A DNA stretch of 49,067 nucleotides from Bacillota bacterium. Its GTDB lineage: Bacteria > Bacillota > UBA4882 > UBA10575. The stretch is from NCBI GenBank assembly GCA_012839115.1, contig DUNX01000037.1, positions 1 through 49,067 of the forward strand. Direction: 5' to 3'. The position numbers were made by a program, and so were the translations under genes. Position 1 is the stretch's first letter; each line of letters opens with the position of its first letter. Under the pieces are notes generated by a model, which was not told the DNA's origin, searched no databases, and saw nothing but the letters and a program-made list of their open reading frames with translations. Shown piece by piece: positions 44,367 through 48,607 of this stretch.

Positions 44367-44396
44367 ATTATACATAAAAGTAACGGTTACTGTCAA
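44367..44396 (-). promoter_or_regulatory. Consensus sigma-A promoter of the liv operon
   Basis: On the minus strand TTGACA (44391-44396) and TATAAT (44367-44372) are both perfect, with an 18-base spacer. The leader to the livK ATG is about 50 bases. Confidence 0.85.
44379..44391. promoter_or_regulatory. Palindromic candidate operator inside the liv promoter
   Basis: AGTAAC-G-GTTACT is a perfect 6-1-6 inverted repeat located in the spacer between -35 and -10, touching the -35 box. A protein bound there would block RNA polymerase. It does not resemble a CodY box; the regulator is unknown. Confidence 0.55.
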
Positions 44397-44476
44397 GTAA
44401 AAATGATGGGTGTTACATGCAGGCTGCACATGGATAAAATGTAAGAACACGTCTATGATCAGAAAAGGATTACGTA

Positions 44477-45304
44477 ATGATTTGCCGAAGAGAAGAGACC
44501 ATGGGAAAACAAGAGAACAAGATGGATAAAGCAGCACAGGCAAAACTGGAAAACAGAAACCGTCCTCGCGTCCACACGCGCAGCAATATTGGCACAGAAA
44601 ACGAACGGTCTTTGCATGCGGCGCTAAAGAGGTGGTATGCGCAGCCCGGCGATAGGTTGGAGGTTCATGTCGACGGTTATATTATCGATCTTCTCCGGAC
44701 GCACGCCCACGGTAAACAGGAGCTTATTGAGATCCAGACGAAGAATTTTGCGGCAATCGCCCAAAAGCTTGGCTCGCTTGTAAAGAACTACCGGGTCCGC
44801 CTGGTCTACCCCATTCCTGTGGAAAAATGGATTACCCGGATTACAGCCACAGGCGAGTTTATTAGAAGAAGGAAATCGCCAAAAAGGGGGAAACCCATCG
44901 ACCTGTTCACCGAGTTGATCAGGGCCCCGGATCTTCTTCGCCAAAAAAACCTCGTGATCGAGATCCTCCTCACCAAAGAAGAAGAAATCTGGTGCGAGGA
45001 CGGTAAGGGGAGTTGGCGCAGAAAAGGAGCAAGCCGCAAGGACAGAAAACTCCTGGAGGTTATTGACCGTATAGAACTGAAAGACGGTAAAGATCTCCTG
45101 GGGTTCCTCCCGGAAGAATTGCCCACGCCCTTTTCCAATAAGGACCTGGCTTTGCTGATGGGGGAACCCGTCCGAATCGTCCGGATGCTCACTTACTCCC
45201 TGCGCAAATGTGGAGTCGCTAAAGTAGTGGGGAAAAAAGGGAATGAACTGCTTTTTACCGTCTGTTGCCACGGGGTTAATCATACATCTTCAGGACGCCA
45301 TTAA
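44477..45304 (+). CDS. Uncharacterised nuclease-like protein with C-terminal winged helix
   Basis: A 275-residue protein I cannot name. The first part, about residues 38-120, has the layout of a PD-(D/E)XK nuclease fold: Glu43 in a helix, Asp71 in VDGYIIDLLR and Glu85-Ile-Gln87 in LIEIQTKNF, followed by a helix and the strand YRVRLVYPI. The C-terminal part, about 212-262, looks like a winged helix (PFSNKDLALLMGEPVRIVRML then LRKCGVAKVVGKKG). No signal peptide or membrane segment. The first ATG has AAAAGGA 7 bases upstream; ATGs at codons 9 and 16 are alternatives. It stands alone, divergent from livK. Enzymatic activity is inference. Confidence 0.75.
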   Translation: MICRREETMGKQENKMDKAAQAKLENRNRPRVHTRSNIGTENERSLHAALKRWYAQPGDRLEVHVDGYIIDLLRTHAHGKQELIEIQTKNFAAIAQKLGSLVKNYRVRLVYPIPVEKWITRITATGEFIRRRKSPKRGKPIDLFTELIRAPDLLRQKNLVIEILLTKEEEIWCEDGKGSWRRKGASRKDRKLLEVIDRIELKDGKDLLGFLPEELPTPFSNKDLALLMGEPVRIVRMLTYSLRKCGVAKVVGKKGNELLFTVCCHGVNHTSSGRH

Positions 45305-45631
45305 TGAACTTAATGTCAACGCATGCCATGAAGATATGGCGCCAATACCATATAAAGCGTATTATTCATCTTGTAACACCCCTTATTTATCCATGCCAAG
45401 CTTAACAAAAACTGCCACTTTTATCAACTGCACAGCAATTCCTAACAAGAAGTGATAAACACTGAAAGAGCCTTGGTTTGCCGCCGTGTACACGGAGCAA
45501 TCCCAAGGCTCTTCGCGCGCACGCGCATAATCCCGGGTTCAAGCTGCAACCCCGCGCTCTTCATAGGCTTGTTCGCGCGCGAATAAGAATAATCTTTATC
45601 TTTTCCGGTAATCCCTAAAATCCATCAGGCG
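45305..45631. other. Convergent spacer with hairpin and two CG tracts
   Basis: A 327-base gap between two convergent genes. The left 150 bases are AT-rich without a recognisable signal. Then come a hairpin (45466-45513) and two CG-alternating tracts at 45514-45529 and 45574-45581. No open frame with a ribosome binding site was seen. Confidence 0.55.
45466..45513. terminator. Possible terminator hairpin between convergent genes
   Basis: The outer 11-bp stem AAGAGCCTTGG (45466-45476) / CCAAGGCTCTT (45503-45513) encloses the inner palindrome CCGTGTACACGG (45484-45495). The minus strand continues TCAGTGTTT, a weak U-run; the plus strand continues into the CG tract. It probably terminates the gene at 45632-46216. 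Confidence 0.45.
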
Positions 45632-47883: not shown

Positions 47884-48177
47884 GTGGAGTATGAGATAAA
47901 AATGACTTCCAAGGGACAATTGACAATCCCGAAAGAAATCAGAGACAAACTAGGTCTTAAGGCCGGTGATTTTTTACGGGCGCAAGTAGAAAAGGGCCAT
48001 ATTCTTCTTAAACCATTGCCTTACAAGAACGCCGACAGGATATTCAGGGAATATGTAGCCAGGGAAGGGAAAAACGCTCCTGGTTTAGCACAAGTTAGAG
48101 AGAAAACGGAAAAGTTGAAAATAGATACGGCTTCCCTGGTGAGGAGAGTCAGAGATGAAGAAAGCGCCGGTGACTAA
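47884..48177 (+). CDS. AbrB/MazE-family antitoxin
   Basis: A 97-residue protein with an N-terminal swapped-hairpin AbrB domain: MTSKGQLTIPKEIRDKLGLK followed by AGDFLRAQVEKGHILLKP (residues about 7-44). The C-terminal half is charged and helical and would wrap the toxin. It starts at a GTG with AAGGAGAG about 8 bases upstream. It overlaps the PIN-domain gene by 23 bases, the usual antitoxin-first arrangement, and probably represses its own promoter. Confidence 0.9.
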   Translation: MEYEIKMTSKGQLTIPKEIRDKLGLKAGDFLRAQVEKGHILLKPLPYKNADRIFREYVAREGKNAPGLAQVREKTEKLKIDTASLVRRVRDEESAGD

Positions 48178-48607
48178 TTATCTCATCGATACCAGCACGC
48201 TTTTTAAAAGGTATATCAATGAACCAGGAACTAAAAAACTGGATGAGCTTTTTTCCACAGCAGGGACGTTCTTTATCTCCGCGCTTACTATTGTGGAGTT
48301 GATATCAAACCTCAAACGTCTCAACCAAGTGGACGGGGTTATTGATGACAATACCTTTACAGCGCTGAAAAGAACATTCTTTAGTGATATTGACAAAGGT
48401 GCGATAGAAATAGAACCAGTCTCACCATTAATTATACTGACAGCAGTGGAATTTTTAAAAGAAACCTACATTACCCCTATTGATGCTGTGCAATTGGCAA
48501 CCATGGCTATCCTTCAGGAACGACTAGGTAACCTGGTTTTTCTGTCTTCTGATCATAAGTTGCTTCGCTTAGCAGCAGAAAAAGGATATGCGACGGAGTT
48601 AATTTAA
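48155..48607 (+). CDS. PIN-domain toxin (VapC-like)
   Basis: A 150-residue PIN-domain ribonuclease. Acidic active-site positions are visible: Asp12 in NYLIDTSTLFKRY, Glu48 in TIVELISNLKRL, an Asp in TPIDAVQLATMA near residue 115 and an Asp in FLSSDHKLLRLA near 132. VapC toxins cleave tRNA or rRNA when freed from the antitoxin. The start lies inside the antitoxin gene, which makes co-translation likely. The targets of this one are unknown. Confidence 0.9.
   Translation: MKKAPVTNYLIDTSTLFKRYINEPGTKKLDELFSTAGTFFISALTIVELISNLKRLNQVDGVIDDNTFTALKRTFFSDIDKGAIEIEPVSPLIILTAVEFLKETYITPIDAVQLATMAILQERLGNLVFLSSDHKLLRLAAEKGYATELI

Follow-up and report, generated by a model that had tools for sequence, protein, structure and literature searches.

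A conserved, unnamed family of PD-(D/E)XK winged-helix proteins in Bacillota with a near-invariant active site

The protein encoded at positions 44477-45304 of the window (the whole 49,067-nucleotide stretch of Bacillota DNA analysed here) belongs to a real, conserved nuclease family that is unnamed and uncatalogued. It combines a PD-(D/E)XK-like core with a C-terminal winged helix (wHTH), an architecture that had been proposed, together with a DNA-binding nuclease activity, from the bare sequence and that is backed by the predicted fold and the near-invariant active site. Judging from the residues that its members retain, the family is very likely capable of catalysis; on balance, we favour a chromosomally inherited family of PD-(D/E)XK phosphodiesterases that are probable nucleases of housekeeping DNA processing or repair, the housekeeping DNA role being our best guess. 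Pfam, NCBIfam, PADLOC and PHROGs contain no family that the window protein matches, its best hit among PDB sequences has E 0.87, and a literature search found no description of its family. When 53 relatives were scanned one by one, Pfam and NCBIfam gave only weak matches, mostly of winged-helix type, and the PADLOC matches were scattered. The features of the gene are as follows:

44477..45304, + strand: gene of the PD-(D/E)XK-wHTH protein, 275 aa; start ATG at 44477, or at 44501 by comparison with locus L002
44603..44842, + strand: nuclease core, residues 43-122 (helix-3 strands-helix-strand, alpha-beta3-alpha-beta), in the AF2 model
44603..44605, + strand: Glu43, motif I, kept in 52/53 relatives
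44660..44662, + strand: Glu62, 53/53
44687..44689, + strand: Asp71, motif II, 53/53
44729..44737, + strand: Glu85-x-Gln87, motif III, 53/53 and 52/53
44765..44767, + strand: Lys97 on helix B, probable migrated catalytic lysine, 53/53; precedents in PMC1913061
44858..45079, + strand: beta-rich extension, residues 128-201, in the AF2 model
45086..45262, + strand: winged helix, residues 204-262, from the AF2 model, structural matches and weak profile matches

Family members were found at 56 loci, of which 53 were aligned, leaving out the duplicates L029 (of L085) and L110 (of L002) and the gene of L025 (genome G035), which at first looked broken and whose break lies in a run of N. At a mean column identity of 35%, H47, K51, E62, D71, E85, K97 and P112 are invariant, E43 is replaced once (by Lys in L087) and Q87 once (by His in L106). 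The layout picked out by the original prediction, Glu43, Asp71, 13 residues, Glu85, any residue and Gln87, is thus present as described, and its residues, whose lack of conservation would have counted against the prediction, are retained beyond chance (E43 and Q87 in 52/53, D71 and E85 in 53/53); H47, K51, E62 and K97 had been overlooked. The gene is under purifying selection, with a dN/dS of 0.19 for the window gene against its congener locus L002 and of 0.23 against L018. Between these two congeners (L002 8016-8783 and L018 4628-5395) DNA identity is 93% in the C-terminal part versus 78% in the N-terminal part, which suggests recombination inside the gene.

The confident AlphaFold2 (AF2) model, built on the 53-row alignment (pLDDT 87.2, pTM 0.79), runs from helix A (45-54) through strands 60-65, 68-75 and 81-86 to a helix at 91-101 and a strand at 106-122; ahead of residue 45, the chain is modelled mainly as coil of low confidence. 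E43 lies just ahead of helix A, D71 in strand 68-75, and E85-x-Q87 where strand 81-86 ends. The strand that had been described as following motif III comes only after the helix at 91-101, so that this detail was slightly inaccurate. The acidic motifs I-III and the basic residue of PD-(D/E)XK enzymes are present (E43, D71, E85 and K97), with motif III reading E-x-Q in place of E-x-K. PMC1913061 reports an E-x-Q motif III in the CoiA-like and YhgA-like families and, in several PD-(D/E)XK families, a basic residue moved to the next helix. Since the helix after motif III carries the invariant K97, this residue is a natural candidate for such a migrated basic residue and, by analogy, probably stands in for the usual motif-III lysine. 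Of these two families, the YhgA-like proteins also share a basic residue in motif IV (PMC1913061), but both carry other additions to the core, and the window family is without a Pfam match.

Structure prediction and fold comparison, both proposed as checks, support the alpha/beta nuclease core. Searched against the PDB with Foldseek, the model had no match below 0.001, the best (E 0.02) being a winged-helix row; near the top stood EndoMS, NucS, YaeQ, SfsA and Bax1, interspersed with ArsR-type winged helices. VIA-align placed SfsA first (Z 8.0, 115 residues, rmsd 3.1), a Z of about 8 that common arrangements also reach, and aligned YaeQ at Z 6.9-7.5 and AF2093 at Z 7.0; TnsA was absent among the matches listed. 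The best structural match is the C-terminal nuclease-like domain of SfsA (PF03749), on whose residues 83-232 the model superposes with residues 44-201. Unlike the window protein, SfsA has no wHTH after its core, and it carries an N-terminal OB fold and an ID-EVK motif (PMC1189080). Conversely, Pfam scans of the window protein and of the 53 members gave no SfsA match, and the AF2 model of the window protein, with its N-terminal coil of low confidence, shows no OB fold there. The repair endonucleases EndoMS (5gke) and NucS (2vld) match the core among the top Foldseek rows, but just 62-95 columns align (E 0.03-0.06) and no sequence relation with the window family was found. A Foldseek search of viral models returned one row below 0.001, at a TM of 0.19, which was judged meaningless. 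The structural neighbours of the model (SfsA, YaeQ, EndoMS/NucS) are weak but of the right kind; the assignment to the PD-(D/E)XK superfamily is firm and draws on fold and motif together, neither of which would suffice alone.

The winged helix that had been suspected in the last residues of the protein is seen at 204-262 in the model, with wHTH matches by structure, mostly to DNA binders of the ArsR/MarR type, and weak ones by profile. In a profile search, the best PDB sequence match of the family's winged helix (window 45086-45262) was the ribosomal protein eS25, at E 5e-4. This match would suit an RNA nuclease or RNA-processing factor with an RNA-binding winged helix, as would the RNA-related genes found in isolation beside two members, L106 (YicC) and L076 (a Toprim/DUF4093 protein). 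These neighbours do not recur, however, and the predominance of DNA binders among the structural matches also makes such a role unlikely. In the preferred reading of a DNA nuclease, the winged helix would hold duplex DNA, the acidic residues would bind one or two Mg2+ ions, and K97 from helix B would, with Q87, do the job of the usual motif-III lysine, so that the enzyme would nick or cut DNA at a site or structure picked by its winged helix together with the beta-rich extension.

The gene is lone, as originally described. On one side it is flanked by a divergent solute-binding-protein gene (Peripla_BP_6), itself beside ABC-transporter genes, and on the other by a convergent DUF4412 gene; the surroundings also include a MatE transporter gene and a MazE/PIN pair. 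Two elements mark its borders:

44367..44396, - strand: promoter of the divergent solute-binding-protein gene, 12/12 consensus
45466..45513, no strand assigned: hairpin separating the gene from the convergent DUF4412 gene, probably a terminator for both directions

A comparable hairpin occupies the equivalent place in the congener loci L002 and L018. In L002, the protein starts with MGKK behind AGGAG and this start aligns with Met9 (MGKQ) of the window protein, so that base 44501 may be the true start of the window gene. The MazE/AbrB-like antitoxin and PIN-domain genes at 47884-48607 (+ strand) overlap and, by Pfam, are likely a toxin-antitoxin pair. An inverted repeat of 27 nt, 78% complementary, brackets the gene (44391-44417 and 45372-45398). 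It was considered as the trace of a mobile element and is read as chance: the surrounding stretches occur once in the genome, apart from the second arm of the hairpin itself and one short match due to chance, and synteny in the flanks of L002 and L018 is ordinary. Pfam found no transposon domain in five window neighbours of the gene.

Gene neighbourhoods of homologues, whose inspection had also been suggested, were read at 54 loci, mostly by eye, with Pfam run on 13 neighbouring proteins of the family and on 2 of DUF2161 (see below). No recognised defence or transposition gene adjoined a family gene in these 54 neighbourhoods, nor was a recurring repair gene seen beside one; the numerous PADLOC matches of one neighbour are generic to ABC ATPases. 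A recurrent partner gene was sought by clustering the neighbours and rejected, as neighbours recur mainly within clades or through big common families (ABC ATPases, MatE). A Hydrolase_3 domain of the HAD type precedes the nuclease in the same open frame at three loci, all of one genus (E 1.6e-37 to 1e-41):

L071, 6869-9214: HAD and nuclease in a single frame
L072, 3-1595: HAD and nuclease in a single frame
L073, 8817-10403: HAD and nuclease in a single frame

The L071 frame has a methyltransferase domain in front as well. In L022, from the window's class, a separate Hydrolase_3 gene lies directly upstream of the family gene (E 2.8e-53), and a phmmer search over all open reading frames of the 56 loci added one further Hydrolase_3 gene, non-adjacent, in L099. 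These links, along with a YfbR-like HD protein, a nucleoside phosphorylase and a 5'-nucleotidase that neighbour the family gene in single clades, could point to a hydrolase of nucleotides or of another phosphodiester that works with phosphatases in nucleotide turnover. We give this little credence, as each link is limited to one clade and none of these genes adjoins the family gene in the window, L002 or L018.

The family is widespread but patchy, with one copy per genome. Among 101 related genomes, 10 carry a member, counting the window's own, and a search of the phylum gave 11 of 398 genomes, a lower bound since a single sequence was used as query. Profile searches recovered it in 8 of 29 genomes of the window's class, in 4 of 5 from the class of genome G081, in 41 of 147 from the order of G353 and in 2 of 46 from the class of G383, and a scan of named genome contigs yielded two relatives, one in a Bacillota MAG (G001, a congener) and one in a Chloroflexi MAG (38% identity). 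In the gene tree, the sequences nearest to the window gene are those of its genus, followed by genus g4 of the same family (support 0.98) and by family f5 of the class (0.93, 0.88); the class of G081 and the Chloroflexi copy join further out. Families are mixed in the order of G353. Within the window's class, the tree follows taxonomy, which indicates inheritance rather than free movement in that part. The same locus is kept, in synteny, in three congeners. No relatives were found in plasmids, phages or viral contigs, where 34 pattern matches included none; these searches used three single proteins and one 16-row alignment, which distant viral relatives could escape. The window gene behaves as an ordinary chromosomally inherited gene, not as a mobile defence gene.

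PD-(D/E)XK nucleases are common in defence, and the original prediction had entertained a stand-alone defence factor, that is, an anti-phage nuclease inactive until infection. Such a role could draw on the patchy distribution (the 10 of 101 related genomes, the 41 of 147 in one order) and on two of the 53 members that touch an 'anti-phage protein' model of NCBIfam (E 0.046), but it is poorly compatible with the conserved synteny, the single copy, the varied chromosomal neighbours and the absence of relatives from the plasmids, phages and viral contigs searched. Moreover, the window gene corresponds to no PADLOC model, no defence gene was recognised next to it, and the scattered PADLOC matches of the 53 members are at best E 0.0075; we regard this explanation as very improbable. 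Equally hard to sustain is the earlier suggestion of a regulator that binds DNA and retains its nuclease fold only as a vestige. The regulator-type winged helix and the sugar-fermentation effects and unspecific DNA binding of SfsA, the closest fold (PMC1189080), might speak for it, but each position expected to bind metal or take part in catalysis is retained by 52-53 of the 53 relatives.

If, as we favour, the enzyme serves housekeeping DNA processing or repair, another family, DUF2161 (COG5482), may fill this role in sister lineages. We take COG5482 to be DUF2161 (PF09929), an identity that the E-CD-ELK motif seen in DUF2161 fits. PMC1189080 describes COG5482 as a family of unknown role whose PD-(D/E)XK domain is similar to the Holliday junction resolvases of archaea and is accompanied by a wHTH at the C-terminus. 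Similar to the window family, DUF2161 proteins have about 220-280 aa, a PD-(D/E)XK core at the N-terminus with a wHTH after it at the C-terminus, and the same order of acidic motifs, and a DUF2161 model (22 rows, pLDDT 92.8) shows the same domain order as the window protein. In contrast to it, they have a motif III with its lysine (E-L-K) and a motif II of the C-D form, and are without the long beta-rich extension. PF09929 was matched neither by the window protein nor, in Pfam, among the families matched by the 53 members, and hhalign of the two families was not significant (E 0.21, probability 0.3%), its lone weak alignment pairing E43/D71/E85/Q87 with E6/D32/E45/K47 of DUF2161. The window protein is laid out like DUF2161 and is not a member of it. 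The Pfam DUF2161 model, described as a PD-(D/E)XK phosphodiesterase, spans residues 98-217 of the protein in L115 (1210-1917, + strand), which leaves the N-terminal catalytic motifs uncovered. An SfsA gene (PF03749) lies directly upstream of the DUF2161 gene in genus g2 (L149 8792-9514, - strand; L155 7340-8137, + strand), thus setting two PD-(D/E)XK proteins at one locus; Pfam confirmed this in 2 cases, and the same cluster is found near DUF2161 in 5 loci.

In the 29 genomes of the window's class, 8 hold the window family, 16 DUF2161, none both and 5 neither. Counted by genome, a Fisher test of this exclusion gives p 0.0003, and counted by genus 0.0048; both are too generous, as each family is a single clade in family f1 and independent switches are therefore few. 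The absence of overlap is uninformative for the phylum (11 and 44 of 398, both counts being taken as referring to the same 398 genomes; p 0.27) as well as for the order of G353 (41 and 2 of 147; p 0.52). PF09929 was found above its cut-off in no genome seen to hold the window family; G436, which holds it, has a PF09929 match below the cut-off (E 7.7e-4) that was left uncounted. That the two families never co-occur in the class suggests, on the strength of few evolutionary switches, that they share one role. A swap of the two at one locus was ruled out: the MatE transporters near the window gene and near some DUF2161 genes are only about 25% identical, and the loci are thus different.

Taken together, the analysis adds an unnamed nuclease family that combines a near-invariant active site with a lysine that has likely migrated; its members were seen in Bacillota and a single Chloroflexi MAG. 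As a tentative proposal, more likely wrong than right, the window family and DUF2161 may be unrelated or very distant enzymes that alternate, one per lineage, in a single undescribed step of housekeeping DNA processing; in one genus, the fusion to a HAD phosphatase within one polypeptide would point to a cut-and-dephosphorylate chemistry at DNA ends. The apparent exclusion between the two families offers a concrete lead, open to testing, to what both of these uncharacterised families do.
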